A DNA stretch of 64,000 nucleotides, from the NCBI GenBank assembly GCA_963575745.1, contig CAUYUJ010019605.1:110001-174000 (forward strand), in the 5' to 3' direction. Positions 39,276-55,603 of this stretch are shown piece after piece; positions within the stretch are counted from its first letter, which is position 1; the number at the start of each line of letters is the position of its first letter. Both the position numbers and the translations under genes were made by a program. Below the pieces are notes generated by a model, which was not told the origin of the DNA, ran no database searches, and was given only the letters and a program-made list of their open reading frames with translations. This stretch comes from Prorocentrum cordatum. Lineage: Eukaryota > Sar > Dinophyceae > Prorocentrales > Prorocentraceae.

Positions 39276-40080
39276 ATGCGGAAATGCGATCAGCAGGAGC
39301 CTTCGTCTGTTCCTTCTCCTCTTCTCGTCGCTGTATGCTCTTCCTTGTCCTCCCTCCTCCCCCGTTCCCTCTCTAATTAATTACCTCGTTCTCCCAGTCT
39401 CACGCGCACTCTTCCTCCCCCCTCTCCTCCTCCTCTTCCTGCTTCTCCTCCTCGTCCTCCTCCTCCTCCGCCTCCTCCCCCTCATTTGTTATATTTCTCC
39501 GTCCTTGTCCTCCTGTCCCCGTTCTCCTTCTCCCTCTCCTCCTCCTCCTCCTCCTCGTCGTCGTCGTCCTCCTCCTCTTCCTCCTCCTCCTCCTCCTCCT
39601 CCTCCTCTTCCTCCTCCTCCTCCTCCTCCTCCTCCTCCTCCTCCTCCCCTTCTTCCTCCTCCTCCTCCTCCCCCTTTTCCTCTCCCTCCTCCTCCTCCTC
39701 CTCCTCCTCCCCCTTCCCCCTCTTCCTCCTCTGCTATCACTCCTCCATAATTCCTGTCCGCTCCTCCCCTTCACTGATCTTCCTCTTCGTCATCATCATC
39801 CCTTTCGTCGCACGCCTCTTAATCCTCAATCGGTTCCCAATCTTCTCGACTTTCTTGTCATCCGCGTCCTTGGCTGTTGGAGGGGCCTCAGGAATTCTCA
39901 GGGCTCTTGTGTTGCACGCGAAGGCACACCTCCCAGGAACGCATCATCCTCCTCACATTCACCCTCCTCCTCCTCATCCTCCTCCTCCATGCACGTTCGG
40001 CTCAAGCCCGCGCCGACGGTAGGTTTCACGGCGGTTGGGCGGGCTCGCGCCCGCCTCCGCGGCCTGCAGTCGGGGCAGAG
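39276..40080 (+). promoter_or_regulatory. left subterminal region with CTC tract upstream of gene A
   Basis: No gene. A CTC/TCC-rich pyrimidine tract covers 39415-39740, and a shorter one (CTCCTCCTCATCCTCCTCCT) lies at about 39965-39990, 90 bp before the gene A ATG. All six genes of the element have such a pyrimidine tract upstream. It could serve as the polypyrimidine part of a spliced-leader acceptor (inference). Confidence 0.5.
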
Positions 40081-41247
40081 ATGCGTGCAGGGTGGGATGA
40101 CAAAGCGGAAGAGGAAACACGGGCCGCAGTTGCGGATTCTTCAAAGAGCAGCGGCGGCGGTTGGGGAACAAGTGGGGGTTGGGGCGGCCGCAGTGGCGGA
40201 TACGGCGGCGGAGGTGACCGCAGTGGCGGCTGGGGCGGCGGAGATTCTCTTGGCGGATGGAGAGGAAAAGCGCAGGATGGCGGCGACGGAAGTGACCGCA
40301 GTCGCGGATGGGAGGGCGGCGGATGGGGCGGCAACGGATGCGAGGGTTGGGGAATGGAGGGCGCCCGCTGGTGGGACGACGAGGGTGGCTGGTGGAATGC
40401 ATGGGAAGGTGGCCGCTCGAGTGCCTCGGCAGGTTCTCCTGCCGCGGAGCCCGCGGCCGCAACAGCGGCGGGCAAAGGAGGCGGTCCCCTGCTTCCCCCA
40501 GGGCGCGAAGAACAAGGCGCAGTTGCGCTGTTTCAAATTGTGCGCAATGAGCCGCTGCCAATTTTCAAGTTGGAATTCTTCGAGAACTTCAGGGCGAACT
40601 GGAACGGCAATTATAAGCAGCACAACGCGGCCTTGAAGTGGTTCCGAGACGAGTACGAAGACCGAGAAAACCCTTTCGGCAGCCGCACGCCCGTCTTCGG
40701 AGGTACCGCAGTTGCGGAGGAAATTTCGAAGATCCTTAAGTACCGCGCAAAGGGGAAGGCGCAGGACAACAGGGATTGGGACTGGGACCACACTGTCAAA
40801 GTGCCGTGGTCTTGGCTGGAGATGGTCGCGCAGATGGATGGACCTACAATGCTGCGCGTCGTGTGCGGCCCTGACAATGACCGCAGTCGCGGGTTGGTCC
40901 GCTGCGAGTGCCGCCCGTGCCCTAGCAGTCTCGACAACATGAGGCACACGAAAGGGGTGGACAGAGGACAGGCGCAAAGAATCCCTCTGCCCCAGTGGGA
41001 TTTCGTCCTCATCCGCGACGACGGCTCGGGCATTCGCGTCCACCCATCCTGGTCTAGCCCGAAGTTCAACACGTATGAGGTGGAGCCGCACTCGCATCCC
41101 GTGCGGGGCCCGAGGGCAGGTCTCGGCAAGAGCGATGGCCACGGAACGTTCACGTTCTGGAAGATGCTGCACGCCCATCCGAATCCTGGGCGGTTCGACG
41201 CGAGCAAGGGGGCGCAGCTGCAACCGCGGTGGTCCGCGCAGCCTTGA
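40081..41247 (+). CDS. gene A: Gly/Trp-rich N-terminus plus conserved-looking globular domain, unknown function
   Basis: 388 aa from the first ATG of the frame (40081). Residues about 20-125 are a low-complexity GGWGGRSGGYGGGG-type region of the sort seen in RNA-binding or phase-separating proteins. Then comes a Ser/Ala/Pro linker. From about 165 to the end is a normal-composition domain (IFKLEFFENFRANWNGNY, WDWDHTVKVPWSWLEMV, CECRPCPSSL, GTFTFWKMLHAHPNP) that I do not recognise. Palindrome copies at 40124, 40188, 40218, 40296, 40706 and 40881 lie inside the gene, read as AVA, RSGG or RSRG. It is first in the row of six, with a 670-bp spacer to the next. It may bind nucleic acid; this is a guess from composition. 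Confidence 0.7.
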   Translation: MRAGWDDKAEEETRAAVADSSKSSGGGWGTSGGWGGRSGGYGGGGDRSGGWGGGDSLGGWRGKAQDGGDGSDRSRGWEGGGWGGNGCEGWGMEGARWWDDEGGWWNAWEGGRSSASAGSPAAEPAAATAAGKGGGPLLPPGREEQGAVALFQIVRNEPLPIFKLEFFENFRANWNGNYKQHNAALKWFRDEYEDRENPFGSRTPVFGGTAVAEEISKILKYRAKGKAQDNRDWDWDHTVKVPWSWLEMVAQMDGPTMLRVVCGPDNDRSRGLVRCECRPCPSSLDNMRHTKGVDRGQAQRIPLPQWDFVLIRDDGSGIRVHPSWSSPKFNTYEVEPHSHPVRGPRAGLGKSDGHGTFTFWKMLHAHPNPGRFDASKGAQLQPRWSAQP

Positions 41248-41917
41248 CACCGCAGTTGCGGGATTGCGCAGCCATGGAACCGCAGTTGCGGGGACCGATC
41301 GCGTGACGCCGCGCTCGTTTGACTCACTATGCGCGCTTTCGGCCGCAGTTGCGGCGCTGCCTTCTAGCGACTTCATACAGCTTGGCCGCAGTTGCGGCGC
41401 TCCCACGACTGACCGCTGTAATTAGGTGCTTCGGGCGCGCATCACCTCCGTTGAAGTTGAAGCACTCGGACGTTAATTAGCGCGGCCGCAGTTGCGGAGA
41501 CAGGTACTTAAACAGATGGATCCGCAGTTGTTCGTCGTCCTCGTCGCCCCTTCCCCGTCGTCCTCGTCGCAGTCTCCTCCCTCCGCCTTTCCTCCTCGTC
41601 GCAGTTCCTTCCGTTGGCCGTAGCCCGCCTCCGTTGGCCGAGTCATTTCCCGTCGTCCTCGTCGCAGTCCCCCCCGAGGGCCGCAGTTGCGGACTTTGTT
41701 GATTCCTCCTCCTCCGTTTCTGCCCCGTCATCCTCGTCGCAGTCCCCTTGCTCCTTTCACCCTCGTCTGAGCTCTTCGCGCCATCCTCTTCCGTCGCGTC
41801 CTCTCCATCCTCCTCTTCGCCTTCCTCGTCCTCATCCCCGCCGTCTCCCTCGTTGTCCTTCCTCTCCCAAGCCGGCCGCAGTTCCCCCGTCGGACGGGGG
41901 CCGCGCGCGGCCACGCC
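41248..41917 (+). promoter_or_regulatory. spacer A-B with six palindromes and a pyrimidine-rich leader
   Basis: No gene. Palindromes stand at 41250, 41280, 41343, 41386, 41486 and 41681. From 41530 to 41870 the + strand is CGTCGTCCTC/TCCTC-rich, ending about 45 bp before the gene B ATG. The phrase CGTCGTCCTCGTCGCAGT recurs at about 41560, 41654 and 41725. Confidence 0.6.
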
Positions 41918-43447
41918 ATGGACCCAGGTCGCAAAGCCGAGGTCGACAAGCGGTTCGCCGAGCTGAAGCAGCAACTGCGGGAAAGGTTCGGCCTGCAAGG
42001 GGCTGCCGCGGATGCCGCAGTCGCGGAGCCGACGGAGGACCGCAGTTGCGGAAGCCCCGAGCGACCGCCGCGCGAGGCCTCCCCGCAGTCGTCTAGCTCC
42101 TCGCGGGAATATCGGCCGCCGCCGCCGATAAGCGCTGCGAGTGGGAGCTCTGCTGGTGGGAGGCGCGAAGAGGCGCAGTTGCGCAGGGCGCACTTGACCC
42201 CCAAGGCAAAATGGGGGCCTCGGGCGCAGACGCCGACGAAGCAGCAGGACCAACCAGCAGTGACGGGAGCCGCCACCGAGACCGCAGTTGCGGGGGTGGC
42301 CGGCGAGCCAGGTGCCGCGCGCGGCTCATCTGGGAGCAGCGCGCCCTCGGCCGTGCTGCTCGCAGCCGAGTCCAAACGAGGCGCCCAACCCGAAGACGAG
42401 GCCGCCTCCCAGGAGAAAGCCGCCGAGACAATCGCCTCGGCCGATTCGCGGCCGAGGAAAAGGCCGCCTCCCACGGAAGGCTCGCCGCTGTCAGAACCGC
42501 AGTCGCGGGGTCGCGCGGGGCCTCCGTCGGAACCGCAGTTGCGGGAAGATGCGGGAGCACCGCGGAAGAAGCAGCGGACCAGGTCCCCTCCAGGGATAAA
42601 CTACGTTGGGGAACGCCCCAAGTGGAACGAAGGATTCCTTCGTACAGCAGACGGCAATCGGGTTCCGTCCACCATCGCTTTGGTGTTCAACGTGGTGGTC
42701 ATCACGAAGGTGGCAACAAAGGAAGATGTCTTCAGGTGCATCTTGCACCAAACTGCGGCGGTCGTCTTCGTCGTATGGGACCCCGAGCTGTTCCGCACGG
42801 GGAACGTCGAAGGCGCTTGCAGCTACGACGTTCCCGTTGGACTCAGGACTGCCGTCGAAGACGCTGTCACTTTGAAAAACAACACCGCGGAGCCTTACTG
42901 GACGACGGTTGGCCTGTTCAGAGACACGGGCGTGGTGCTCGTGCGCCCGCGCATCATCGCAGAGACCGCAGTTGCGGGTCATGTTGTTGGGGCCACCCAC
43001 GCCGTCACGATCCTGCGCTTTCGCCTGAAGGGCTCCGACATGAATCCTGCCGCGGTGATCCGTTTTGCCGTCGTGTCCAGACACGCAGTCACCGAACGTC
43101 TCCAACAGAAGATCACGCAATCAGAACAAACAGCGTGGCATCCAAGTTTCTTCAAGGACGCGGTTGCTTCCATCCATAAAAATGATGTGCGGTTCTTGTG
43201 CGGCCTGTTTGACATCCCGCCTGAGCAGCTCCAAGCATTTGGCCGCAGTTGCGGAGCCAGCTACACCTGCCCGATGGGGGTGGTGCTCAGGGCTGGACCC
43301 GCCCTGTTCGGAGGCCTTGTGGAGGGCACACGCGTCCATGCATCCGAATTACGTCCTCCCCATTGGCCCGTGCGACGTGCGCATTGCGGACTACAACACG
43401 GATTTTGCAGGGAGGCCGTCGAAGAACGATCCCCAGTGGCTCCCTGA
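41918..43447 (+). CDS. gene B: disordered N-terminus plus globular domain, unknown; truncated by a frameshift
   Basis: 509-aa frame from ATG 41918. Residues 1-25 form a basic helix (DPGRKAEVDKRFAELKQQLR). About 26-225 is Ser/Pro/Ala/Glu-rich disorder with basic patches (RKKQRTRSPP), fitting a nuclear protein. From about 228 a globular domain begins (NYVGERPKWNEGFLRTADG, TIALVFNVVVITKVATKEDV, AVVFVVWDPELF, HAVTILRFRLKG, VRFLCGLFDIPPEQL). After about residue 474 (VEGTRVH) the frame degenerates to Arg/His-rich nonsense, while the adjacent frame (43338-43745) is sensible. The natural product was probably longer. Palindromes inside read AVA, RSCG, PQSR and PQLR. Function unknown. Confidence 0.65.
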   Translation: MDPGRKAEVDKRFAELKQQLRERFGLQGAAADAAVAEPTEDRSCGSPERPPREASPQSSSSSREYRPPPPISAASGSSAGGRREEAQLRRAHLTPKAKWGPRAQTPTKQQDQPAVTGAATETAVAGVAGEPGAARGSSGSSAPSAVLLAAESKRGAQPEDEAASQEKAAETIASADSRPRKRPPPTEGSPLSEPQSRGRAGPPSEPQLREDAGAPRKKQRTRSPPGINYVGERPKWNEGFLRTADGNRVPSTIALVFNVVVITKVATKEDVFRCILHQTAAVVFVVWDPELFRTGNVEGACSYDVPVGLRTAVEDAVTLKNNTAEPYWTTVGLFRDTGVVLVRPRIIAETAVAGHVVGATHAVTILRFRLKGSDMNPAAVIRFAVVSRHAVTERLQQKITQSEQTAWHPSFFKDAVASIHKNDVRFLCGLFDIPPEQLQAFGRSCGASYTCPMGVVLRAGPALFGGLVEGTRVHASELRPPHWPVRRAHCGLQHGFCREAVEERSPVAP

Positions 43448-43745
43448 TTGGATGCATCGAACAAGCGACTCCATCATCTCTCGGCGCTGGGTCCCAGCGA
43501 AGTACATGCCCAAGTGGGAGGATGACCCTGACCGCAGTAGCGGAGTCAGAAGAAAGCTCGGCTTGGCAGCGCTGCCCCCAATCGGCAAGGTCATTCAGAA
43601 GGAGCTCAACGAGAAGACCTTCAGCACGCACTGGTGCGAGGGCATCCACCAAAACGTCGTCTTCGTCGGCCACGGACGCCAGAGTCGGGCGAGCAAGCGG
43701 AAGCACGAAGAGGCGCGATCTGCCGCAGTTGCGGACGAGCGGTGA
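43338..43745 (+). CDS. gene B, downstream part in the next frame
   Basis: 135 codons from ATG 43338 with normal protein composition (NYVLPIGPCDVRIADYNTDF, WVPAKYMPKWEDD, KVIQKELNEKTFSTHWCEG), a basic tail (SRASKRKHEEARS) and AVAD from a palindrome just before the stop. It overlaps the decayed end of the 41918 frame. The most likely history is a 4-base duplication (GCAT/ATGC) at about 43337-43343 splitting one gene. Alternatives are a programmed +1 shift, a separate small gene, or an assembly error. Confidence 0.6.
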   Translation: MHPNYVLPIGPCDVRIADYNTDFAGRPSKNDPQWLPDWMHRTSDSIISRRWVPAKYMPKWEDDPDRSSGVRRKLGLAALPPIGKVIQKELNEKTFSTHWCEGIHQNVVFVGHGRQSRASKRKHEEARSAAVADER

Positions 43746-44453
43746 GTGCGGCAAGACCGAGGAGCCGCAGTTGCGGAACAGAGCTCGGTACTACTGGGCG
43801 CCTGCTGCCTGCGTAGTGCATCCCATTAGCGATGGAGTGCATGTTGCGGTGTAGGATAGCCCGCAGTTGCGGGGTTGCGGTTGCGAAGCCGCAGTTGCGG
43901 TTGCGTATAATAGGAGAGCACGCGGTTGCGAAGCCGCAGTTTGCAATAAGTGTGCGCGCGCTGGGTCATCATCATCGTCGTCGTCCGTCCTCGTCGTCGT
44001 CGCTGCCGTCGTCGTCGTCGCGTCTGTCGTCTGTCGTCAGCAGTCGTCGTCGGTCGTCGTCGTCGTCAAGTCTGTCGTCTGTCGTCAGCAGTCGTCGTCG
44101 TCGTCGTCCCTCCTCCCTCCTCCCTCCTCCCTCCTCCCTCCTCCCTCCTCCCTCCTCCCTCCTCGTCCTCCTCCAGGCCGCATCCCCCCGCCACCTCCGT
44201 CCTAGCTCTCCTTCCCCTTCCCCTCCTCGTCCTCCTCCAGCTTGCACCCCCCTCCCTCCTCCAGCCTGCACCCCCCCCAAGCTCTCGCCCGATATTTTGG
44301 ATTAAAACTGAGCCTTCAGTCGTCCGCAGGCATTCGGCTCAGCAGGTCGTTGGGCTCCTGGCACACACGCCTCCACCCTGAGCGACGGACGTCGTGCCAT
44401 AGTCCGCCATATCGGAGCTCCGGGCCGCAGTGGCGGACAGCGTCGGCACAGAT
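43746..44453 (+). promoter_or_regulatory. spacer B-D with palindromes, GTC tract and CCTCCCT array
   Basis: No gene. Palindromes at 43765, 43861, 43889 and 44425, plus a decayed GAAGCCGCAGTTTGC at about 43930. GTC triplets at 43975-44105 contain a duplicated TCTGTCGTCTGTCGTCAGCA phrase (about 44022 and 44071). A 7-bp array (CCCTCCT) fills 44107-44165, followed by further pyrimidine-rich sequence to about 44280. Confidence 0.6.
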
Positions 44454-46880
44454 ATGAACGACAGCGTCGGCACAGATAATGCCGCAGTGGCGGACAAGAA
44501 AGCCGCAGTGGCGGACGAGACAGCCGCAGTTCCAGGCGGAACGCAAGGGATCTTTCAGAGGGCCAACGCCTTGAGGTCTAGATTCAGGACAGGGGACAAG
44601 GTGCGCCTCCCTGTGCTCATGCTCGCCCCGCACACGGGCAACCGAGGCGGGCACTACCCTCAGCAGGAAAGGGTTCGGGAACTCGCTGTGAAAATCTTCC
44701 TGGCTGGATTCACGCAAGCCGAAGCTGACCACGAAGGTGTCTGCGTTCAGATGTACCCAGCACAAGAGCTGGTGCTGAGAAAAAAGGAGGACCCGAAGTT
44801 CCAGACGTACACAGAGTACAATCTGGAAAAAGCGACCGGCCACCTCGCTGCGTGCTTCGACCGCAGTTGCGGAACAGACGTTGCGTATGGGACGTGTTCG
44901 CACTCCCACTTGTGCCTCGTGTTGCGGGCGTGCGCCCTGGGAGCCAAGTGGCCCATCCCCCAAGGCATGGAGTTCACGGAGGACGAGAGCGCGAGGCTGA
45001 AGCGCGTGCTCGATAAGGACGGCAATCTCGACATGGCCGCAGTGGCGGAACATGACCCTGTCGCTAAGAAACTCGTGCAGGGGGGTATGCTCATGGAAGT
45101 GCTTAGCTGGAAAATCATGGACGAGGAACCCACTGGTGCTTCGCTCATCAGCCAGTCCCTCAATAAAGGAGCCGATTTTGCGTTGCGAACGACTGAACTC
45201 ACCGCGCTCCGTGTTCTGTGCAAGGCTGTTGACGCGGAGCTGCACGCCGCAGTTGCGGATCAGGTTGCCTTTGACAAGGTCAAGCTCTCCGTCATGCACG
45301 AACTCGATCGAGTCGTTCAGGACCCAGACTTCATTGAGCTGTTCTCGTTCGTTGTTGGGCTCGGGAGCACGAAAGCGCAGTTCATCCCCTTGCTGCTCCA
45401 GTTCTGCGAGGTCTACGTGAACTCCAGGAGAAGGGCCCTTCGGCTCGGTGCCTTCGGGGCAGCCAGCGAGCTTCCCGACGAAGTGCCGTGGGTCAAGGTT
45501 GCCGTGGTGATGCGATGCTACAGGAACGCGCCTGCGAGGAAGAGGGGCGTTGACACTCCTGTGTGGTGCCCTGACCCAGAACAATCGTGGAAGAAGAAGG
45601 AGTTCCGAGACTTCCTCATCGACATGAACTCGGCTCTCCGTTTGTACTTGTTCACGCTGAGCAAGGCCATCGACGGCATGGGCCCTGAGAAGGCGATCGA
45701 GTTCAAGGCGAACCTGTGCATACTGACCGCAGACGGCTTCATGCAGTACCTGAAGGACACCCACGTCAAGGAACGAAGTATCCCAGGACATCGTCAGGCG
45801 CTCCTCCGCGCTTGCGCGGAGGCCACGGGGAAGGTGGAGCCGAAGTCCAATCGGGACGCCCTTGAGAAGGCCCTCGGCGAAGTGGGAGTCGGAGGCGGGA
45901 AGCCCGATTGGTTCGATTTCAACGCGTTGCCGCGCCCAGAACCGAATGAGCCCGCAGTGGCGGGGAAGACAAAGGCTTCCGCAGAGGGGCACGAGTTGAT
46001 GCCGACGGTCATTTCCTTTGACCCCACGACGCAATTACCAACGAACCACCAGCGCAGCAGGGACACGACGGCCATTCCACGCGGATCCTTCCCTTTGCCA
46101 ATCGCCGAATGGAGGCGTTCAGCGGCAGCGAAGGAGCTGGGGCGGGAGCCTGCTTTGGTCAGCGCAGTGTTGCTGTGCCTTTGGGCGCGCCACATGTCCG
46201 CAGTTGCGGAAGCGCAAGTAGAGGTGTTGCAAGACGCTGACACAGAGAAACGCACCGTCAAGGCAACCGCTGCAAACGACGAAAAATGCATCGAGTTGTG
46301 GCCGTGCGTCCCAAAGGCATCCAAGGTGCACGCCGCAAGCACGCACCCCGAGAGGGTGGCCGTGCAAGTCTGGGTGAAAGGAGATCCAAATGGGGCCACG
46401 CCCACGACCTTCTACTTGCACCCCGAGTTCAAGCCGCCTGCGGACAAGACGCCCGCCGACGTGGCTGACCACGATGTGCGGTTGAGAGCATGGAAGTGGG
46501 ATGCGCAAGAGACAATGCACGTCTTCTGGGCAGTCAACAGAGTCACGGAACAGGAGATCCAGCAGAGAAACAGCCGTAATGAAAGCGCAGTTGCGCGCAT
46601 CAACATGGAGCTGGAGACGAAAGAATTGGCGGTGTGCGTGCCTGGGACAGGCGGGGTCGTGCTCGCCGTGAATGTCCCTGTGCTGGTGAATACCACGGCC
46701 GTGAAGAAAGGAGAAGAGCTCCTGTGGGAGGCGAGACCCAAAACCGCACCGAAGAAGAAGGCGGCCGAGGAGACGTGGAAGACGGACGCGGCCAAGAGGG
46801 CCAAAGGGAAGCCTTCGGGCCAGCCCGCGCCGAAGAAATCGAAGAAAGGGTTCGACGAAAGCGGGAAGATGTCGCTCTAA
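44454..46880 (+). CDS. gene D: 808-aa protein of unknown function
   Basis: I start it at ATG 44454; the frame is open slightly upstream, but only through a GTG that lies inside a palindrome. The N-terminus is short and disordered with AAVAD repeats from palindromes (44482, 44503). Residues about 25-480 are largely helical and of normal composition (CVQMYPAQELVLRKKEDPKF, YGTCSHSHLCLVLRACALGA, FIELFSFVVGLGSTKAQFIP, FRDFLIDMNSALRLYLFTLS). After an Asp/Pro linker comes a second domain (PIAEWRRSAAAKELG, VWVKGDPNGATPTTFYLHPE), ending LVNTTAVKKGEELLW. That last motif faintly recalls the end of SET domains, but the catalytic motifs are not seen. The tail is Lys/Ala-rich (KRAKGKPSGQPAPKKSKKG), probably nuclear. 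No frameshift. Confidence 0.75.
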   Translation: MNDSVGTDNAAVADKKAAVADETAAVPGGTQGIFQRANALRSRFRTGDKVRLPVLMLAPHTGNRGGHYPQQERVRELAVKIFLAGFTQAEADHEGVCVQMYPAQELVLRKKEDPKFQTYTEYNLEKATGHLAACFDRSCGTDVAYGTCSHSHLCLVLRACALGAKWPIPQGMEFTEDESARLKRVLDKDGNLDMAAVAEHDPVAKKLVQGGMLMEVLSWKIMDEEPTGASLISQSLNKGADFALRTTELTALRVLCKAVDAELHAAVADQVAFDKVKLSVMHELDRVVQDPDFIELFSFVVGLGSTKAQFIPLLLQFCEVYVNSRRRALRLGAFGAASELPDEVPWVKVAVVMRCYRNAPARKRGVDTPVWCPDPEQSWKKKEFRDFLIDMNSALRLYLFTLSKAIDGMGPEKAIEFKANLCILTADGFMQYLKDTHVKERSIPGHRQALLRACAEATGKVEPKSNRDALEKALGEVGVGGGKPDWFDFNALPRPEPNEPAVAGKTKASAEGHELMPTVISFDPTTQLPTNHQRSRDTTAIPRGSFPLPIAEWRRSAAAKELGREPALVSAVLLCLWARHMSAVAEAQVEVLQDADTEKRTVKATAANDEKCIELWPCVPKASKVHAASTHPERVAVQVWVKGDPNGATPTTFYLHPEFKPPADKTPADVADHDVRLRAWKWDAQETMHVFWAVNRVTEQEIQQRNSRNESAVARINMELETKELAVCVPGTGGVVLAVNVPVLVNTTAVKKGEELLWEARPKTAPKKKAAEETWKTDAAKRAKGKPSGQPAPKKSKKGFDESGKMSL

Positions 46881-47369
46881 TTAAGAAGCCGCAGTGGCGG
46901 CAGTCAGGGCGGCTTGCTCGCGTGACCGCAGTTGCGGGCAACAGGCCGAAGGGGGGGGCGCACGCGTGACCGCTGTTGCGGAGCGCTCGTGTAGTTTGCA
47001 GTGTCACTGCTTCTGTTAGCTGATGCCGCAGTAGCGGACCGCTGACGATCGAGCACGGAGGTTCGAAACGGACCTCCTCCCTCCCTTCTCCCTCTCCTCC
47101 CTCGCCCTTCCTCCACTTCCTCCCTCTCTCCTCCTCCTTTCTCCCCTTCCTCCCAAGTTGGAAGCCGAAACTACTCATTTCCTCACTCCCTCCCTCCCTC
47201 CCTGGAGGCCCTGGAGGGCCTCCGCCCTGGAGGGCCTGGAGGGCCCTGGAGGCCCTGGAGGGCCTCCCTGGAGGCCCTGGAGGCCCTGGAGGGCCTCCCT
47301 GGAGGCCCTGGAGGGCCTGGAGGGCCCTGGGCTGAGGGCGGAGGCCCTGGAGGGCCTCCGCCCTCAGAA
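46881..47369 (+). promoter_or_regulatory. spacer D-E, part 1: palindromes, pyrimidine tract, CCTGGAGGG repeats
   Basis: No gene. Palindromes at 46889, 46926 and 47026. A CTCCC/CTTCC tract spans 47068-47155. From 47190 to 47362 a GGCCCTGGAGGGCCTCC minisatellite of about 170 bp leads into the double hairpin. Confidence 0.6.
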
Positions 47370-47466
47370 TGCTTCAAAGCAGTGCCGCGGCACTGCTTTG
47401 AAGCACCCAGGTGCTTCAAAGCAGTGCCCCGGCACTGCTTTGAAGCATTCTGAGGGCGGAGGCCCT
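47350..47466. repeat. 117-bp nested inverted repeat with two copies of the element's hairpin
   Basis: Outer arms AGGGCCTCCGCCCTCAGAAT and ATTCTGAGGGCGGAGGCCCT enclose two 36-bp hairpins (47370-47405 and 47412-47447) with arms TGCTTCAAAGCAGTGCC / GGCACTGCTTTGAAGCA. Loops are GC and CC. The whole can fold as one long cruciform or as two side-by-side hairpins. Confidence 0.9.
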
Positions 47467-47610
47467 CCAGGGAGGCGCGAGGATCGCAGGGGCCGAGGGA
47501 GGCCCTCCAGGGAGGCGTTCGTCTCGCCATCTGGCTCAACCGCGCGCGGCCCCACTGCCCGCACCTCCGCCTTGCCCGCAGTTGCGGCTGTGTCCAGCGC
47601 AGTAGCACAC
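47467..47610 (+). promoter_or_regulatory. spacer D-E, part 2: leader of gene E
   Basis: GGGAGGCCCTCCAGGGAGGC occurs twice in this leader, with a palindrome at 47576. The gene E ATG is at 47611. The frame is open upstream through the hairpins, but that part is repeat-derived and lacks an ATG. Confidence 0.55.
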
Positions 47611-48609
47611 ATGCCGACTTCGAGCGAATGGAGCCCTGTGTGCGTTGAGAAGGTCTTGTGCATCCGTGGAGGTTGGCTTGCGCAGACCACCCCCATCCCC
47701 GAAAAGGATGTCAAGGTGCTCCACGCAGGGCCCCTCGGAGAGATAAGCTTCGTGCACGTGAACATGCAAAAGGCTTGGCTGCTCAAGGTGTGCGCCAAAG
47801 GTAAACCGACCGCAGGGGCCTTGAAGGCCTCCAAGGCCTGGGACGCGCTGAAGAAAGAACTCGCGAAGCAGGGCGGCGCCGCAGTTGCGGACGAGGAGAG
47901 CGACGGCGACGCGGGGGACGAAGCAGATGACCCCATGTCGGCCCTGGTCAGCTCCACGGACGCCACGAAGAAGCAGGCAGCGACCCCGACCAGCGCCAAG
48001 AAGCAGAAGACTGGAACGCGTGCGGCGACTACTGGCCTGCCCAGGGGCGAGGCCGTGGAGTCGGCCATAGCCACTGTGCACTCCGTACAGATGCCCGCAA
48101 AGAGCCCCATGAAGTTTCCGCACGACACGGCCGTTCGAAACGTGCGGGTGGCCAGCTTCAAGCGGAGGACGTTGTGGCTGGACGCTGCAGACCTTGGGTG
48201 GCTGATCGACATGATCGTGGACGACGTGAGCCTCGGCGGTGTCCCCGACATCGACGACGGCGACAAGGACGAGGCCGCAGTGGCGGACAGGGACTGGGCA
48301 ACGGCGGTTGACCCTGCCACCCCGCTGGCGAAGCAAAAGGAGGTCGACTCCCTCGTGGCGCAGGGGAGCGGCTCTGGCTTCACCGTCGTTTGGGACTTCA
48401 AGGGCGCTTGGGTCGCGACCATCACGCGAGAGTGTGCCAACAAGGGCAAAAGGATCGAGATGGATGTGAAGAAACTTACAAAGAAGAAGTGGCAGTCGGC
48501 GCAGTCGGTGAAGGGCTACGACTACGAGTGGGAGGGCATGACGCAGCACCAGCGCAAGCAAGCGGCTCTGGATTACCTCGAGCTCCAAATCCCCAGTCTG
48601 TTCGACTGA
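47611..48609 (+). CDS. gene E: 332-aa protein of unknown function
   Basis: Starts at ATG 47611 (MPTSSEWSPVCVEKV). Residues 1-80 form a compact N-terminal domain (CIRGGWLAQTTPIPEKDVKV, ISFVHVNMQKAWLLKV). About 90-155 is acidic then basic linker (DEESDGDAGDEADD, SAKKQKTGTRA). From about 160 to the end is a second domain (MKFPHDTAVRNVRVASFKRR, LWLDAADLGWLIDMIVDD, SGFTVVWDFKGAWVATITRE, YDYEWEGMTQHQRKQ). Palindromes at 47879 and 48275 encode AAVAD within linkers. No known family is recognised; the charge pattern suggests a nuclear, possibly DNA-associated, protein. Confidence 0.75.
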   Translation: MPTSSEWSPVCVEKVLCIRGGWLAQTTPIPEKDVKVLHAGPLGEISFVHVNMQKAWLLKVCAKGKPTAGALKASKAWDALKKELAKQGGAAVADEESDGDAGDEADDPMSALVSSTDATKKQAATPTSAKKQKTGTRAATTGLPRGEAVESAIATVHSVQMPAKSPMKFPHDTAVRNVRVASFKRRTLWLDAADLGWLIDMIVDDVSLGGVPDIDDGDKDEAAVADRDWATAVDPATPLAKQKEVDSLVAQGSGSGFTVVWDFKGAWVATITRECANKGKRIEMDVKKLTKKKWQSAQSVKGYDYEWEGMTQHQRKQAALDYLELQIPSLFD

Positions 48610-48984
48610 GGCCCGAAGCCGTATGGGCCGCAGTTGCGGTGGGGCTACTGAGTGCCCGCAGTTGCGGGGTGGCTGGGTGCGCGTGAACACGCGGAGGGCG
48701 AGGCGGTGTGAGGAGGCAGGCGGAAGGTTTAGGGTGTTCCACGGGTGCACGCCTTAGTGCGCCAACTTGTGTGGGCGAGCGTTTTTCTTAGAGAAGCATG
48801 GAGTGAAGCATCGAAACCCTGTGCGCGCGATGATTGGGGCTTCCGCGCGGGCGTTGTTGAAATGTACCTCCTTCTTCGCCCCTCCGCATCGTCTTCAGTT
48901 GCTCCTCCCTCCTCCCCTCCCTCTTCCTAGTTCTGTAGCCCGCAGCCGAGTGCCCGGCCCGAGTCGTTCGCCACGCGACCGCTC
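48610..48984 (+). promoter_or_regulatory. spacer E-F with pyrimidine tract before the transposase gene
   Basis: No gene. Palindromes at 48628 and 48656. CTCCTCCCTCCTCCCCTCCC, then TCTTCCTAG, at about 48900-48930 gives a polypyrimidine-AG 55 bp before ATG 48985. Confidence 0.6.
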
Positions 48985-51900
48985 ATGGATGTTCCCGTGG
49001 GGCGGACATGGTATGGCGAGGAGGACGGAACGCATTTCGAGGTGGAGTGGCTCCATTACGACAGCGGCTGCGCACCGAGGAAAACGAAGTATGGCACCAC
49101 TGGGCTCGCCAACATCTTGAGCCGCAGTAGCGGCGTTCCGTGCCCCAAGAAGATAAAGGTGCACGCATGTGCGGATTTTCCGTGCCTAGCGAAGTGGCCC
49201 GCGTCGCAGTACGGCCTTGCTGAGCCGCCTCGCTTTCATTTGCGGCCGTCTGCTTGGCGACCGGGCGCGACGCCACCACCCGCAGTTGCGGCTCCAGGCG
49301 GCACCGCAGTTGCGGCTCCCTCGGCCCCTGCACACATAGCACCAGCAACACCAGCAGAACTCGCAGCTCCTGCGCAAGAAGGACACGCAGCTCCAGCACC
49401 AGAAGCACCCGCAGAACCCAAACCTCCAGCAGCCCCTGTGCCCGAAGCACCCGCAGCAGCAGTCCCTCCAGCTCCTCCAGCTCAAGTGCACGCAACACCA
49501 GACCCGCCTGCTGCGCAGGAGACCGCAATTGCGGTTGAAGCTCCTGAGGGAGTGGAAGCGGACAAAGACACACCACTTCCAGCACGCTTGCCACCAGCGC
49601 GGCCGCTGCCAGAGAACTGGTCGAAGACGCAGGTCGCATTCTTCCCGTGCCCAGACCCAAAGGCTGCAGCACGAGTTGCGGCGCCTGTTGGCGACGCCTT
49701 GCGGCCACGAGTCGCGGCGCCACCCCTGGCGCCAGAGAAAGGTGTACCTGTGGAAGACGCGCCAAAGATCCAGGCCGCAGTGGCGGCGACGGTGCCTGAC
49801 CGCGTGATGGCTCTCCTGAGGCAGATTCTGTCCGAGAATTCCTACATAGGGTATTCAGCTTTCATGCTGTTTGCCTTGCGGTTCGGGCGTCAACCTTACG
49901 TGTGGGAAGGCGAGAACCGCAAGGACCTCCTTGACTTCTACATGCCTTGGGCAAAGGAGAAGTGCACTGAGCCATGCGCCGTCGACGGCGTGGCGTGCGT
50001 ACTCGCCGCTGCTGAGGATCTGTTCGGGGAATGGACAACGGTGGAACTCAGGCCCGTGACTCCCGAGAACCCTCTCCATGAGGTGCGCCACTGGGTGGCC
50101 GCAGTTGCGGTGGGTGGCGTGTGCTCTGAGGGGGCGGACGCGTTGAACAGGTTCTACGGTCCTCTGGGACAATGGGTCCTAGGGACTGTTTGCGATGGAA
50201 ACTGCGGCATTGACCTTATGGCGATGATGTTGCAGAAACCGCAAAATGCCGAGACGCGCAAATGGCTTCGGGAGGAACTGTACGATTTCGGGGTGCGCCG
50301 CTGGGACGAACCGTGGTTGCACGACATGCTCGTTGTCACGCAGGAACTAACCTTGGAGGAGGTGCGGGCGTACCGCAGTTGCGGGGCCAGCGGCCCTGCT
50401 GGACCCATGGTCCTGCACGACTCCGAGGGCGAGGGCGAACCAGCAGAGGCGCCGAGAGAGGCGAGCGCGCCACGCCCCGCTCTCATGGCGGCGTTAGAGT
50501 GGCAGACGGGCGTGCAGGACATGGGTATATTGCTTGCCATGGCTGAGGCTATGCCCGAGGCGTTGCAGGAGGAGCAGATCAGGGCGCACGCACTGGCCAG
50601 CGCACGCCCAAAACCCGAAGTTGCGGAACAGAAGCGGCGCTTGTGCCCGCACATGCTCAGAGACCGCGAACTGGTTTGCAAAGACCTGGAGGCGCACGCA
50701 CGCAGTTGTGGTTGGATGGGCGAGGGCGTTCTGCCACGGAATTCAATCGCGTCTTTTTGCGAGCGGTTCACGTGGCCGAAGGGCATGGGGGTCGTCCAGC
50801 AGCGCCAGGCCGTCTCCAAGTGGTTTCAAAACTGGCGCACACAAGGTGGACATGGCACGGCGGGCGTGCATGGCCGACGCCGCGCGCGGGGCAACCAAGG
50901 GCGCCCGAACAAGGCTCCATGGCTGGAAGCCGCTCTGTACGAGTGGTGGTCCCACATGAGGTACTCCGTGGACTGGAAGGCGGTGGCCAAGCGAACCGCA
51001 GTTGCGGAGGAGAGGCCCAAGATGTTGGCCAGGTTCTCCCAATCCCTGCTGGTTACGAAGGCGAAGCAACTCGTCGCGGACTACTGCGTGGAGACAATGA
51101 AGCGGGGAGGCAAACCGATGGTGCCGCAGTTGCGGCCTCGGTGGTGGGTGAAGTGGCGGCGCTCCTACGGCCTGAGCATGAAGAAGCCGAACCGCAAGTA
51201 CAAGGTGCCAAAATGGTTGCTCCAATCTCGTTTTGAGACTATGATCTTGAACGTGGCCAGGGTCCGCGCAGCTGCAGAGGAGCTTCTGGGGTACGACCCG
51301 CACATCCTGAACTGGGACCAGTCGCCCTTTCACCACAACGAGTCGTCGTCGGCCTCGAAGCCGACCTTGGCTGTGAAGGGTGGCATTGTCCCGCTTGTCG
51401 AGGCGCATGACGACAGCAGGGCTCGGTGGACAGCGAACCTGACGGTGTCGAGCGACGCGGAGGACATCCGCAGTTGCGGACCACCGCCGGCGGAGCTAAT
51501 GTTCAAGGGGGGATCTGTCATCGCTGAGGGCTTGGCCGCACATGCCCGCAGTCGCGGCTATCCGTCTTGGGTGAGCACGGCGACGTCCGAGAAGGGGTCC
51601 TACCGCGCAGACGACGTTGTATCATTCTTGCAGCGGCACTTGCGGGCCTGGCCCGACGACCCGCAGTTGCGGGGAAAGTGGCGCATCCTCATGGCCGACG
51701 ACCATTCCCCGCACAAAGCAGACGCTGTGCGGAGACTCGCCTGGCAGCGCGGCTACGTGCTGATCATTCACGGCGGGGGGACGACCGCAGTTGCGCAGCC
51801 CGTGGACACGGACTTGAACCAGCACGTGAAGCGCCGGTACATTGCCCTCGAGACCAAAGCGCTGGTGCAGCAAATGGCGTTGGGGAAGCACGTGCCGCAG

Positions 51901-53100
51901 TTGCGGCGTTCCGATTGCGCCGACTTGATGCTGTCAGTGTTGGAGAATGTGCAGTTGCACTTGGACGCCGCGAAAGGTTTCCTGAAAGTGGGAATTCGAG
52001 CGCCCTTCGACAAGTCAGGAGATCTCGAGATTTGCCGAGAGGCGGCGGAACTCTGGGAAGCAGGGGGGCTGCGAGCAAAAGTGGACACCGCAGTCGCGGA
52101 GGTGAGGGAAGAATGCGAGCAGAAACGTTTGAAATGGTCCTACAATGACGTGCTGCGTCTCATACACGAATACGAGAAACACGACGCCACAGATTCCGTG
52201 TTGGAGAAGCTCGGCGACGAAGCGCTAGGCCAGGAGCCAGGCCACGAGGAGGGCGATGAGGAGGGCGGGGAGGAGGAGGAGGAGGAGGTGCACGAGGAGC
52301 ACGAGGAGGACGAAGAGCAAGAGGAGGCCTCGTGGGCCGAGGCTCTTGCGGAACAGTGCGATGCCGCAGTTGCGGCACCTGGGCCTCAAGGATCCTCGGT
52401 ATCCATGGACTGCGTGGTCGACGCAGAGGCGGCCGAGCAGGTGGCAGTGGCGACGTCCTTGGCAGAAACGCTCCGCGAGGCGGAAGATATGCTGCGCCAA
52501 GTGGGCATGGAGAAACTAGCGCAGGATTGCCGACAGCAACGACACAAACAAAAGAAGCGGTTGAGAGAGCTGGCGCGGGAGGACAACGAGGTCCTACGAG
52601 CGTTGACTGCCCAGCGAGACCACGAAGCCGCAGTGGTGGCGAAAAAGCGGCGCCTGGCTCTGGAAGCGAACGACAGGACGAAGGCGTTGCACGATCTCAA
52701 GAAGCAGATTCGAGAGGCCGAGGCCGCCTTGAGGGCAAAGAAGGAGGCCGCAGTTGCGGTGGAAACGGCTTTGGCTAACAAACACGCCCTAGCGCAGTGG
52801 AATCCCGAGGAGTTCAAGATCAAGAAAAACAGGATGGCAGCTCTGGATCGCCTGGCTCGCGGAAAAGGCGTCCTCTCAGACGAGCAGAGGGGGGAGTGGG
52901 CATGGTTCAAGACGCATTGGGACGAGGAGATGTGCAAGCAGCACAAGGAGCAATGGCCGCTCACGTTTGCTGGGTGGCTGCAAAAAGTCGCGAACGACGC
53001 GGCGTCTGGGAACCGTTCGGCGCTGTCGCAGTTCGTGCATTCGGAAACAGTGAGAACCCTGGGAGGGCAAATGGCGCTGGTAATCCCAGCCCTAGCGTGA
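48985..53100 (+). CDS. gene F: DDE_1/pogo-like transposase with OTU-like motif and coiled-coil tail
   Basis: 1371 aa from ATG 48985. Residues 95-210 are Pro/Ala-rich linker. About 270-465 is a domain with CDGNC (403-407), matching the DGNC core of OTU-type cysteine proteases, though no partner His motif is certain. About 640-760 is helical and Trp/Arg-rich (ALYEWWSHMRYSVDWKAVA, RWWVKWRRSYGLSMKKPN), resembling CENP-B/pogo DNA-binding segments. The DDE_1 catalytic pattern follows: NWDQSP (D778), LMADDHSPH (D905), QPVDTDLNQHVKRRY (D941), with 36-residue D2-D3 spacing. About 1080-1120 is a Glu-rich run, and about 1165-1275 a charged coiled coil (RQQRHKQKKRLRELARED). Likely cuts and rejoins DNA at the element's TIRs in the nucleus. 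No frameshift or stop, so possibly active. Confidence 0.8.
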   Translation: MDVPVGRTWYGEEDGTHFEVEWLHYDSGCAPRKTKYGTTGLANILSRSSGVPCPKKIKVHACADFPCLAKWPASQYGLAEPPRFHLRPSAWRPGATPPPAVAAPGGTAVAAPSAPAHIAPATPAELAAPAQEGHAAPAPEAPAEPKPPAAPVPEAPAAAVPPAPPAQVHATPDPPAAQETAIAVEAPEGVEADKDTPLPARLPPARPLPENWSKTQVAFFPCPDPKAAARVAAPVGDALRPRVAAPPLAPEKGVPVEDAPKIQAAVAATVPDRVMALLRQILSENSYIGYSAFMLFALRFGRQPYVWEGENRKDLLDFYMPWAKEKCTEPCAVDGVACVLAAAEDLFGEWTTVELRPVTPENPLHEVRHWVAAVAVGGVCSEGADALNRFYGPLGQWVLGTVCDGNCGIDLMAMMLQKPQNAETRKWLREELYDFGVRRWDEPWLHDMLVVTQELTLEEVRAYRSCGASGPAGPMVLHDSEGEGEPAEAPREASAPRPALMAALEWQTGVQDMGILLAMAEAMPEALQEEQIRAHALASARPKPEVAEQKRRLCPHMLRDRELVCKDLEAHARSCGWMGEGVLPRNSIASFCERFTWPKGMGVVQQRQAVSKWFQNWRTQGGHGTAGVHGRRRARGNQGRPNKAPWLEAALYEWWSHMRYSVDWKAVAKRTAVAEERPKMLARFSQSLLVTKAKQLVADYCVETMKRGGKPMVPQLRPRWWVKWRRSYGLSMKKPNRKYKVPKWLLQSRFETMILNVARVRAAAEELLGYDPHILNWDQSPFHHNESSSASKPTLAVKGGIVPLVEAHDDSRARWTANLTVSSDAEDIRSCGPPPAELMFKGGSVIAEGLAAHARSRGYPSWVSTATSEKGSYRADDVVSFLQRHLRAWPDDPQLRGKWRILMADDHSPHKADAVRRLAWQRGYVLIIHGGGTTAVAQPVDTDLNQHVKRRYIALETKALVQQMALGKHVPQLRRSDCADLMLSVLENVQLHLDAAKGFLKVGIRAPFDKSGDLEICREAAELWEAGGLRAKVDTAVAEVREECEQKRLKWSYNDVLRLIHEYEKHDATDSVLEKLGDEALGQEPGHEEGDEEGGEEEEEEVHEEHEEDEEQEEASWAEALAEQCDAAVAAPGPQGSSVSMDCVVDAEAAEQVAVATSLAETLREAEDMLRQVGMEKLAQDCRQQRHKQKKRLRELAREDNEVLRALTAQRDHEAAVVAKKRRLALEANDRTKALHDLKKQIREAEAALRAKKEAAVAVETALANKHALAQWNPEEFKIKKNRMAALDRLARGKGVLSDEQRGEWAWFKTHWDEEMCKQHKEQWPLTFAGWLQKVANDAASGNRSALSQFVHSETVRTLGGQMALVIPALA

Positions 53101-53427
53101 TGCAGGCCGCAGTTGCGGACCCACAGGAAGTCCAGAGGGAAGTTGTTTTTCCAAGCGGCTCCCGCGCGGGCAGGAGATGAGGCAAAACCGCAGTTGCGGT
53201 CTTCCTGCTGCTGTGAAAATAATCCTTTCACAGTCCCTTGCAATCGTCGCCCTCCTTCTGCTTCTCCGCCAGTCCATTTGTTGTTCTTTCGGTTCCTTTG
53301 AGTCCTCGCCCTCCTTCTGCCACTCCTCGAATCCTCTTTGTCTCCTCCCTCCATCCGACCCCATGCCCATTCACGATCCATTTCCGTAGCCACCGTGGCT
53401 CGAGGTGGCGCACGCGAAGACGCAAGC
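53101..53427 (+). promoter_or_regulatory. spacer F-G
   Basis: No gene. Palindromes at 53107 and 53188. The pyrimidine-rich phrase CTCCnCCCTCCTTCTGC recurs at about 53250 and 53307. The spliced-leader-like segment at 53384-53404 lies just before the chosen start of gene G. Confidence 0.6.
53384..53404 (+). other. possible relict spliced-leader sequence
   Basis: CCGTAGCCA-CCG-TGGCTCGAG compared with the dinoflagellate spliced leader (CCGTAGCCA-TTT-TGGCTCAAG): 17 of 21 positions agree. Relict leaders just upstream of start codons are known from dinoflagellate genes derived from reinserted mRNAs. Here it sits 24 bp before ATG 53428. Chance similarity is not excluded. Confidence 0.4.
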
Positions 53428-55413
53428 ATGTGGCCGCCCGCGCGCCCGAGCGCATCCTCAGGGAGTATGGACCGTGGACTTCGATTCGCCAGAACGGTGT
53501 TCATCCACAACGCTGAGGAGGAGGAGGGAGGCAAAGACGAGGAAGCCGCAGTTGCGGATGATGACGACGACCAGCGGACGCAAGATGGCGACAGCACCGT
53601 CGCGTCCTCGGCTGCCTCCGCTGACGAGGCTGAGTCCCGGGGAGGTGCGGGAGCCGCAGTTGCGGCAGCACATGACTCCTACATGCCGAGAGTGTTGTCG
53701 TCGCGGAGAACCTGGAAACGGGTGCCCATCATCGAGACAAGCAATCTGTCGGAAAAACAAAGAGCTCTTGTCGACGCATGGGAGGAGAAAACGGAGTTCG
53801 AAGCGGGACGGGTCGGCTTCTACGTGGCCAACTTCGGAGGGACTGCAGCTAGACCCACGCAACGCGCGGACGAGTGGGCGCAGCTCCGCGCGAACCCTGC
53901 CCAGATCATCGCCCTCTGCGAGTGCGACGACGAGACCTGCGCGGTACTCAGTGGGGAGCACGACGCGAGGGACAGTGCAGCCGCAGTTGCGGACGATAGG
54001 TTTCGGAGTCGGACTCAATGCACCTACCTGTGCGTTAAGGGCGGCGAGCCATCAGGGACCCTCCTTGTTGGCATGAGGGACCGCAGTGGCGGCCACATTG
54101 AACACGTAGACTTTGCGAGACTCTTCCACAAGCAGGAGAAGTCCAAAACGAAGAAGAAGAAGAAACAGTCCGCAGTTGCGGAGGCTCCTGCGCCAAAGCT
54201 GCACAACAAGTACTCCAGGGCGATGGTGGTGCGCGTCCACCTGGACCAGGCCGTGCCCCATTTGGGGGGCTCCTTCAACGTCATGGCGGTGCACGTCCAC
54301 CACAGCTTGGCCAACCAAGACTGGGGCGTCACGAAGCTCCATGAGTTCTACAACTGGTTCGTCGCCTACGTCAGGGAATGGGACGTGAAGGTCTGCATGG
54401 GGGACTTCAACATGTGCATGTTCCAGCTTGTGTCCTGGTGCCGCAATTGCGGCCTGACTGTGGACGTCGCCGCGTGGACCCCCTGGAAGACAGCAGGCGG
54501 CCAGCCCAGGGCAGACAGCATGGCGATTTTGTTCATAAACTGTCCTGGGCAGTACAAGCTTCACCATGGCCTGAGTGTTCTGCACGACCGTGAGGGCGGA
54601 TTCTTGACGACCCAGCATGATCCGTCTTTCCCTGTCTTCGACTACACGAATGGCCCTGGGAAGATGCTTCAGACTTACGTGCCCAAGGCTGAGCCCGTTG
54701 AAAACAAGATGCGCGCCTTCCTGACGCCATCTGGCGAATCCTTGACCGCAGATGCGGAGTTCGAGCAAAGGATGGCGCGCAGGGAACGCGACGATTGGGT
54801 GCGCTATCCCTTCAGAGTGAAGCAGGGCAACCTCGACGACAAGATATGGCATGGCGCCTTCGGCAGGGCGAGGCACGGAGCGCACTTCCCTCTGGTGGCT
54901 TTCACGCACAATACGTGCCGCAGGTCACCTGAAAGACTCGCCGCGAGGTTGGAACGCAGGAAGGGCGGCAGGAAGGGCGGCAAGAAGGGCGGCAAGAAGG
55001 GCAGCTACGCGGACACCGCAGTTGCGGGGAAGGGCGTCCGACCCCAGATGGGAACCGCAGTTGCGGGGAGAGACGCTGGGGCTGAGCGAGCTGGGAACAC
55101 GCCACCGCCGCAAGCTGCCAACGGCGACGATGCGACCCCTTCTTGTGCCGCAGTGGCGGCTGGGTCCTGGGACGCCAGCGGCAGCGGCGCATGGGAGGCG
55201 CGCAGTCCCGCCACGAGATGGCAGGGCTGGTCCTGGTGGGACTGGAGCTCGAGCGAATGGGGCGCTGATGGCGCGCAGTGGTGGCCCTCTGATCATGCCG
55301 CAGTTGCGGACAATGCCCCTGAGGGCTCGCCTCCTCAGCGTGAAGTCGAGTGGGGCTCGAGCGGGCGACCTGCCGAGCGCCCTCCGTGGAGCTTCGAGGC
55401 GCAGCGTTGGTGA
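53428..55413 (+). CDS. gene G: endonuclease/exonuclease/phosphatase (EEP)-like protein
   Basis: 661 aa from ATG 53428, the first ATG of the frame. The N-terminal 75 residues are acidic and disordered with AAVAD palindromes. From about 120 to 450 the pattern recalls the EEP nuclease fold (PF03372). FYVANFGGTAARPTQ is followed by AQIIALCECDD, with E165 as the metal-binding Glu; then FNVMAVHVHHSLANQ; then KVCMGDFNM, with D326 and N328 as the GDFN motif. A terminal SDH (about 621-623) exists but lies in low-complexity sequence, so its role is doubtful; TQHDPSFPVFDY is an alternative. About 505-520 is a GRKGGKKGGKKG basic run, and the C-terminus is Trp/Ser/Gly-rich. Probably a nuclease acting with the transposase or on RNA. 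It could be catalytically weak if the final His is missing. Confidence 0.65.
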   Translation: MWPPARPSASSGSMDRGLRFARTVFIHNAEEEEGGKDEEAAVADDDDDQRTQDGDSTVASSAASADEAESRGGAGAAVAAAHDSYMPRVLSSRRTWKRVPIIETSNLSEKQRALVDAWEEKTEFEAGRVGFYVANFGGTAARPTQRADEWAQLRANPAQIIALCECDDETCAVLSGEHDARDSAAAVADDRFRSRTQCTYLCVKGGEPSGTLLVGMRDRSGGHIEHVDFARLFHKQEKSKTKKKKKQSAVAEAPAPKLHNKYSRAMVVRVHLDQAVPHLGGSFNVMAVHVHHSLANQDWGVTKLHEFYNWFVAYVREWDVKVCMGDFNMCMFQLVSWCRNCGLTVDVAAWTPWKTAGGQPRADSMAILFINCPGQYKLHHGLSVLHDREGGFLTTQHDPSFPVFDYTNGPGKMLQTYVPKAEPVENKMRAFLTPSGESLTADAEFEQRMARRERDDWVRYPFRVKQGNLDDKIWHGAFGRARHGAHFPLVAFTHNTCRRSPERLAARLERRKGGRKGGKKGGKKGSYADTAVAGKGVRPQMGTAVAGRDAGAERAGNTPPPQAANGDDATPSCAAVAAGSWDASGSGAWEARSPATRWQGWSWWDWSSSEWGADGAQWWPSDHAAVADNAPEGSPPQREVEWGSSGRPAERPPWSFEAQRW

Positions 55414-55529
55414 TGGCCGCAGTTGCGGGCAAGTGGAGCATGATGTTGATTGCCGCAGTTGCGGACAGTGTACGCTGGAAAAATCATCATCATCATCAAT
55501 CATAATCATCATCATATCATCATATCATA
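55414..55529 (+). other. right interior end: two palindromes and a CATCAT tract
   Basis: Palindromes at 55417 and 55453 directly after the gene G stop, then TCATCATCATCATCAATCAT and a CATAT-rich stretch to the right hairpins. Confidence 0.6.
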
Positions 55530-55592
55530 CGTTCAAAGCAGTGCCGGGGCACTGCTTTGAACGCGTTCAAAGCAGTGCCGGGGCACTGCTTT
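55530..55592. repeat. right subterminal hairpins
   Basis: Intact hairpin 55530-55563 (CGTTCAAAGCAGTGCC, GG loop, GGCACTGCTTTGAACG), followed by a second at 55565 that lacks the end of its right arm (GGCACTGCTTTCGAT). The loops are GG here and CC at the left end, so the two ends are mirror images, as the TIRs are. Confidence 0.9.
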
Positions 55593-55603
55593 CGATCGTC
55601 GCC

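Follow-up and report, generated by a model that had tools for sequence, protein, structure and literature searches.

What keeps a short, nearly palindromic sequence repeated scores of times in a single orientation, within and between the genes of one mobile element? The question is raised by a stretch of 64,000 nucleotides from the dinoflagellate Prorocentrum cordatum (GenBank assembly GCA_963575745.1, contig CAUYUJ010019605.1, positions 110,001 to 174,000 of the forward strand), referred to here in its entirety as the window. A Tc1/mariner-type transposon of about 16.5 kb, recognised by its inverted ends, TA flanks and transposase fold, occupies positions 39173 to 55632 on the plus strand and bears the sequence CCGCAGTNGCGG, termed here the word. 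The word is a sense-strand hairpin word found throughout a family of giant mariner-type transposons, in which it exists as lineage dialects, and it is not an inserted element. On balance we favour the view that it tags the element's mRNAs with a hairpin peculiar to the lineage, which would be read by a co-evolving, probably element-encoded factor.

A sharply defined word on the gene strand

A pattern search of both strands of the window returned 69 exact matches to CCGCAGTNGCGG, 68 of them on the plus strand between 40124 and 55464 and one on the minus strand at 12686. In 100 dinucleotide shuffles of the window the mean was 0.12 matches and the maximum 1. An earlier, sequence-only reading of this DNA had described about 70 copies in one orientation, lying in genes and between them at intervals of about 220 bp. 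The counts bear this out: all 68 copies lie on the gene strand, at a mean distance of 229 bp, with 46 inside the six ATG-to-stop open reading frames (ORFs) and 22 outside. Near-copies are scarce on the plus strand of the element, with 7 at one mismatch and 12 at two. The variable base N is T in 47 copies, G in 12, C in 6 and A in 3; it had been correctly pointed out that T, G or C gives no stop codon, and three copies have the remaining base.

The 46 copies within ORFs are read as AVA (29), RSxG (12) and PQxR (5). Since all three frames are used and further copies lie beyond the ORFs, it is the nucleic acid that is kept and not one peptide, in agreement with the sequence-only reading. A codon-preserving shuffle, proposed beforehand as a control, points the same way: synonymous shuffling of the ORFs yielded a mean of 1.05 copies and a maximum of 6 in 1000 runs, as against the 46 observed.

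Two copies had also been listed outside the element. That at 12686 is exact, whereas that at 18989 is CCGCAATTGCGG, one mismatch from the word. No other motif-like copies occur outside the element. Both belong to a shared piece, CCCCCTCACTCTTAYCCGCAAYTGCGG, which is present in inverted arrangement with these copies at its inner ends and is apparently a separate repeat family.

The word in related elements

The proposal that the word is confined to one transposon holds for this window but fails beyond it. A protein search found 116 relatives of the transposase, of which P0007 (100% identical) was excluded both from the peptide counts and from the comparison of gains and losses described below. 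Among the remaining 115, AVA occurred 911 times against 131 in shuffled sequences, RS[CGRS]G 232 times against 9.4 and PQ[LSW]R 51 times against 3.0, enrichments of 7-, 25- and 17-fold. The control peptides ATA, AGA and RTAA stood at about 1-fold, and reordered versions of RSxG and PQxR at 0 to 0.7-fold. Some controls were raised, namely VAV (1.6-fold), RN[CGRS]G (2.5-fold) and AAV and VAA (2- to 3-fold); the last two are raised because they overlap with AVA, and the RN[CGRS]G excess could come from another dialect. A second gene, ORF 3, behaves similarly: in 11 of its 14 matches, a set without the protein encoded in the window itself and two from the host, AVA occurred 50 times against 10.1, RSxG 3 against 0.4 and PQxR 5 against 0.2. 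In the set used for an antisense test, the sense peptides reached 1009 against 155, 261 against 11.1 and 64 against 3.6, and the antisense peptide ATA was at expectation (100 against 91.7).

The assembled sequence sets included A1, of 35 sequences, and A3, of 49. Pattern scans of IMG/VR contributed 43 and 67 stretches; among the first 43, for which motifs were counted, four hold at least 3 copies, and two of these four share one contig on which the copies are evenly spaced. A pattern-based scan of IMG/VR for the transposase gave 50 candidate stretches, none of which was confirmed.

Dialects of the word

Comparison at the DNA level covers two relatives, designated L044 (NHDG01000044.1; 36% identity, 7.7 kb) and L045 (JAIXPV010000615.1; 26% identity, 3.2 kb). 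L044 carries CCGCAATNACGG 21 times and CCGCAGTCGCGG once, and L045 has five copies of CCRCGGTTGYGG together with some near-copies; all of the copies lie on the plus strand. Both contigs are filed among bacterial metagenome genomes, and they are probably eukaryotic contaminants.

Two proteins, each 72% identical to that of L044, place these dialects side by side. P0048 encodes peptides of the CCGCAGTNGCGG type, and the peptides of P0123 fit CCGCACYNGCGG, a dialect read from the protein. Where L044 has RNDG, RNNG and AITG, P0048 has RSCG, RSCG and AVAG and P0123 has RTSG, RTSG and APAG. Site by site, numbered by L044 residue, the counterparts in P0048 and P0123 are RSCG and RTSG at residues 418 and 890, AVAG and APAG at 622, AVA and APA (with a one-residue gap) at 761, PQSR and PHSR at 1114, and PQSR and PHPR at 1361, the site of the CCGCAGTCGCGG copy. 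PQSR is compatible with both dialects. Residue 557 is matched by ALA in P0123 only, residue 1354 is without a counterpart, and at residues 143 and 303 P0048 has a gap and P0123 has not yet begun. In at least one lineage, that of L044 with about 20 sites, the word is thus re-spelled almost completely.

When 132 transposases were scored against 320 candidate words, 95 were assigned to CCGCAGTNGCGG, 7 to another word (including L044, confirmed by its DNA) and 30 to none. The dialects of P0012, P0015, P0034, P0115, P0123 and P0131, known from protein only, outscore all 396 shuffles; dialects of this kind are offered tentatively. A reversed-protein control was uninformative, as AVA is palindromic as a peptide.

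Pairing of the arms

That the arms of the word are kept complementary is well supported. The L044 sites of the form GCAATNAC were analysed as a set of 22 (set A4) in which neither the loop nor the inner pair is altered and the flanks are long enough, the single CCGCAGTCGCGG copy being excluded. Their five stem pairs are intact in 96.4% of cells. Cells changed on both sides number 5, against 1.0 in shuffles, covariation scores 0.180 as compared with 0.089, with 0 of 500 shuffles scoring as high, and one stem position shows the pair types CG, UA, UG and GC. In slid controls pairing drops to 27–45%. The element in the window has double changes which preserve the stem, GCGC-AGTT-GCGC (three copies) and GTGC-AGTT-GCAC (one), and its minus strand is free of AGTN hairpins whose 4-bp stem is perfect.

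In the relatives, flanking bases were deduced from the residues adjoining words in the AVA frame. The test took AVA sites with word-compatible flanking residues, 769 of the 1009 in 124 proteins, of which 646 come from 78 proteins that each have 5 or more. Flank complementarity is significantly in excess in 11 of these 78 relatives (0.55 when shuffled, with a maximum of 3 in 200 runs), and all four Watson–Crick types occur at the flanks in P0029, P0126 and P0036. Taken together, the 11 selected proteins have complementary flanks at 69 of 86 sites, where shuffling within each protein gives 37.5; the pooled count is biased upward by their selection for excess. In P0046 the flank pairs are T-A only, and part of the flank excess may derive from lineage base composition. 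The flanks of the control peptide ALA (30 sites) are likewise complementary in excess (14 against 8.7, P 0.002), and the ACY dialect can encode ALA. The window lineage is without a clear fifth pair (22/68 against 16.5, P 0.02; with a looser seed, 32/93 against 29.6, P 0.30).

Placement relative to genes

The word is unevenly distributed along the element, with 3.8 copies per kb in coding sequence, 11.6 in the first 250 nt past stop codons and 1.2 in the other spacer and the leader. The 1469 nt of post-stop sequence hold 17 copies, whereas the leader and the rest of the spacers, 2468 nt in all, hold 3 (P 1.6e-5). If ORF 2 is ended at 43447 instead of 43745, the figures become 15 copies in 1469 nt and 7 in 2766 nt (P 0.0025), a weaker contrast which still holds. 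From the six stops to the first copy the distances are 2, 19 (84 with the earlier end of ORF 2), 8, 18, 6 and 3 nt, and a copy lies within 18 nt of five of the six stops whichever end is chosen. L044 is similar in a descriptive sense: copies follow one stop at +7, +46 and +69 and another at +57, +229, +249 and +280, and the remaining spacer has no exact copies, the exception being a variant hairpin, GCTCG-CAATTA-CGAGC, close upstream of the transposase ATG. Hairpins that combine the local loop with a perfect 4-bp stem number 72, 17 and 3 on the plus strands of the three DNA loci, and there are none on the minus strands.

The sparse spacers include CT-rich tracts ahead of the next ATG. In dinoflagellates, multi-gene transcripts are known to be cut via spliced-leader trans-splicing (PMC11453091), and we infer that these tracts may be trans-splice acceptors.

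A proposed tag on the element's messages

The favoured explanation is that the word would be a short RNA hairpin, here CCGC-AGUN-GCGG, with a 4-bp stem and an AGUN loop. The element would be expressed as several same-strand messages, each with copies in its coding region and soon past its stop. Stem and loop would be recognised by a factor, most likely a product of the element itself, which would so mark the element's own mRNAs, for their stability, translation, export or assembly into particles. Word and reader would co-evolve, giving rise to the dialects. We infer both that the word acts as RNA and that a factor reads it to the benefit of the element. A more elaborate possibility is a self/non-self RNA code, in which each lineage uses its own dialect in all of its messages and its own co-evolving reader, separating the element's RNAs from those of the host and of rival elements; this we hold only tentatively and think rather less likely than not to be correct.

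Tolerance of G-U pairs would indicate RNA, and single departures in word-like copies at the three DNA loci comprise 7 G-U and 0 A-C; the count excludes two A-C cases (window) and one G-U case (L045) in stems which are not the word. Several observations weigh against this explanation or are neutral. Folding context is unsupportive: in the window the mean predicted pair probability of the hairpin is 0.329 in native sequence and 0.406 with shuffled flanks (P 0.10), 29% of copies exceed a pair probability of 0.5, the antisense strand is predicted to fold at least as well (0.423 against 0.471), and L044 gives 0.585 native against 0.606 (P 0.89). The proteins of relatives do not favour G-U, with 3 G-U and 4 A-C, and a pooled G-U count of 39 against 50.6 expected. 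Two less common antisense peptides exceed expectation. R[YHND]CG occurs 7 times against 2.5 and P[LPQR]LR 30 times against 11.5, the second excess being due in part to the sense peptide PQLR, which its pattern also takes in. Within-protein shuffling leaves 7 of the 11 proteins with flank excess at P<0.05, and the other 4 fail their own shuffle. Across all 124 proteins pooled, flank complementarity is weak, at 210 against 194.8 (P 0.06), which we take to mean that the length of the stem is a property of each lineage. Finally, Pfam recognises no RNA-binding domain among the element's proteins.

The unsupportive folding context and the missing G-U preference in the proteins of relatives lend themselves to a signal in DNA. 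A protein of the element would then recognise the word as a nearly palindromic or cruciform site, whether to transpose or replicate the element, to count its copies or to mark its chromatin, and the orientation would be fixed by some polar DNA process. The predominance of T at the variable base, which lengthens the DNA palindrome to arms of 5 bp, and the occurrence of the exact palindrome CCGCAATTGCGG twice within the element also fit such a site. We nevertheless consider it unlikely, although the strongest of the competing accounts, given that copies are dense in coding and post-stop sequence, sparse in spacers and missing from the 908-nt leader, and given the strandedness of the perfect hairpins. 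Its variant in which two half-sites are read independently is disfavoured by the covariation of the arms, complementarity in L044 and in the 11 of 78 relatives exceeding what such half-sites predict.

A hairpin directed at the host, acting as a decoy or processing mark for a host factor in RNA processing, silencing or decay, would likewise account for the sense-strand, mRNA-like placement, and is rated as improbable. Yeast RNase III (Rnt1p) reads an AGNN tetraloop on a long stem. The loop of the window's word is of this type, but its stems of 4–5 bp are much shorter than those of RNase III substrates, and pairing further out is not significant. Moreover, the word differs among related elements, which is unfavourable for a shared host reader.

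Gain and loss of the word

The sequence-only reading likened the word to inserted palindromic elements such as Rickettsia RPEs and mitochondrial GC clusters. Mobile 12-bp palindromic insertions spreading within the element would explain the scarcity of decayed copies and the use of every frame, yet the manner in which sites come and go leaves this model largely refuted, and it is rejected here as very improbable. In 25 protein pairs at 75–99% identity, 439 word sites were compared, all from alignments of at least 200 columns and all more than 8 columns away from either end. The word was in place at 340 sites; at 84 it was replaced with no gap within 2 residues, and only 2 sites fell at a four-residue gap and 13 at another gap. 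Gapless replacements far exceed four-residue gaps in each of the lower identity bands also. The usual replacements are neighbours of AVA or RSxG one residue away, implying that the word is gained and lost through point mutation. Motifs at identical sites with no 12-bp insertions or deletions, which the earlier reading had named as speaking against insertion, are thus largely what is found, at the protein level. The spelling of the word itself also changes at shared sites. Tens of sites per element have been retained while the proteins fell to 40–50% identity.

The word might also follow from composition, from codon bias or from the repetition of a peptide, since alanine-rich AVA is common where genes are GC-rich and some control peptides are raised, but the synonymous shuffling refutes such a model and the 22 copies outside the ORFs and the unenriched reordered controls tell further against it, so that it can be dismissed with near certainty.

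The carrier and its genes

The carrier is of the Tc1/mariner type and thus a nuclear-type transposon, as the sequence-only reading had held. In the single copy examined, its ends are identical 21-bp inverted repeats with TA on either side: the left, TAATCCGATAGCCCTTATAAC, lies at 39173–39193 (plus) and the right at 55612–55632 (minus), each including the TA target duplication. ORF 5 encodes the transposase, P0001 (1371 aa), with a predicted DDE/D catalytic domain of the mariner fold at residues 600–1060. A check for an N-terminal helix-turn-helix gave a weak match to HTH_Tnp_Tc5 (E 0.014) in one of 35 family members.

The leader (39173–40080) is strongly CT-rich at 39323–39822 and is followed by six ORFs, all on the plus strand, as are the copies behind them. 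ORF 1 (40081–41247) has a glycine-rich N-terminus and 6 copies; five more lie 2 to 238 nt past its stop (41250–41497) and a sixth at +433 (41681). ORF 2 (41918–43745) is open from 41918 to 43447 and then in a different frame up to 43745. It seems to run on in this other open frame (43065–43745) past about 43.3 kb, the change of frame appearing to be a frameshift or a sequence error, and three copies lie 19 to 143 nt past 43745 (43765–43900). ORF 3 (44454–46880), whose protein P0002 is read from an upstream GTG, is followed by three copies 8 to 145 nt past its stop (46889–47037) and by a CCGCTGTTGCGG variant at 46970. Behind ORF 4 (47611–48609) are two copies at 18 and 46 nt (48628–48667). ORF 5 (48985–53100) contains 15 copies, with two more 6 and 87 nt past its stop (53107–53199), and ORF 6 (53428–55413) precedes the final two, at 3 and 39 nt (55417–55464).

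From MGDFNM and similar motifs seen by eye, ORF 6 may be endonuclease/exonuclease/phosphatase-like, although it has no Pfam or PDB match. Similarly, residues 380–440 or so of P0001, upstream of the transposase domain, contain DGNCGIDLM, which by eye is reminiscent of an OTU-type protease motif. No capsid-like match was returned by Pfam or by PDB sequence searches of ORFs 1, 2, 3 and 6, and the structure model of ORF 3, with a predicted local distance difference test score of 61, was too poor for comparison. A stretch of ORF 3 is shared with two Prorocentrum cordatum host proteins, P0150 (35 identical residues) and P0151 (about 30), one named as a casein kinase and one with a thioredoxin domain, as if the piece had been exonised or mis-annotated.

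Rfam and tRNA scans gave no matches. A second palindrome, TTCAAAGCAGTGCC-SS-GGCACTGCTTTGAA, occurs near both ends of the element (39243–39272 and 55531–55596) and twice in the spacer between ORF 3 and ORF 4 (47372–47443), where the surroundings of the pair form 63-nt inverted arms which are 98% complementary. These palindromes are possible transposase-binding sites or a small nested element.

Comparison with known systems

We know of no DNA transposon with a hairpin word that is scattered through its genes and forms dialects. Searches of the open-access literature brought up no comparable system; a single paper there, on Bdellovibrio, contains the exact 12-mer. The carrier resembles the Tc1/mariner transposons Mos1, SETMAR and Sleeping Beauty in its TA duplication, inverted ends and DDE/D catalytic fold, and differs from them in its 16.5-kb length, its six same-strand ORFs, its 1371-aa transposase and its dispersed word. 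Rickettsia palindromic elements, mitochondrial double-hairpin elements and GC clusters are palindromic units that have inserted, also inside genes. The word similarly lies within genes, but unlike these units it is gained and lost almost without insertion or deletion. Dinoflagellate introner elements are likewise dinoflagellate mobile DNA with inverted repeats, located in genes; they create introns, however, whereas the word sits within open frames and past stop codons.

Two further systems rely on dispersed motifs. The DNA uptake sequence of the Neisseriaceae is a short dispersed word with lineage dialects (PMC3630211). It is genome-wide DNA read in transformation, in contrast to the word described here, which is restricted to the gene strand of one element family and has covarying arms. 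If the word were nonetheless a DNA signal, a strand-fixed 12-bp code within coding sequence would be equally unexpected. Single-stranded RNA viruses possess dispersed RNA packaging signals, in which many short stem-loops share a recognition motif (PMC6281560). Scattered stem-loops with a common motif would be shared with the present element; it differs in being a DNA transposon with several messages and nearly invariant words, and in having no recognised capsid or coat protein. Should the word be an RNA tag, it would represent a new kind of signal, allowing a selfish DNA element to tell which messages are its own, as has been described for RNA viruses. The dialects then provide natural swap experiments for finding the reader, and the retention of sites together with the re-spelling in L044 makes the co-evolution of word and reader directly testable.

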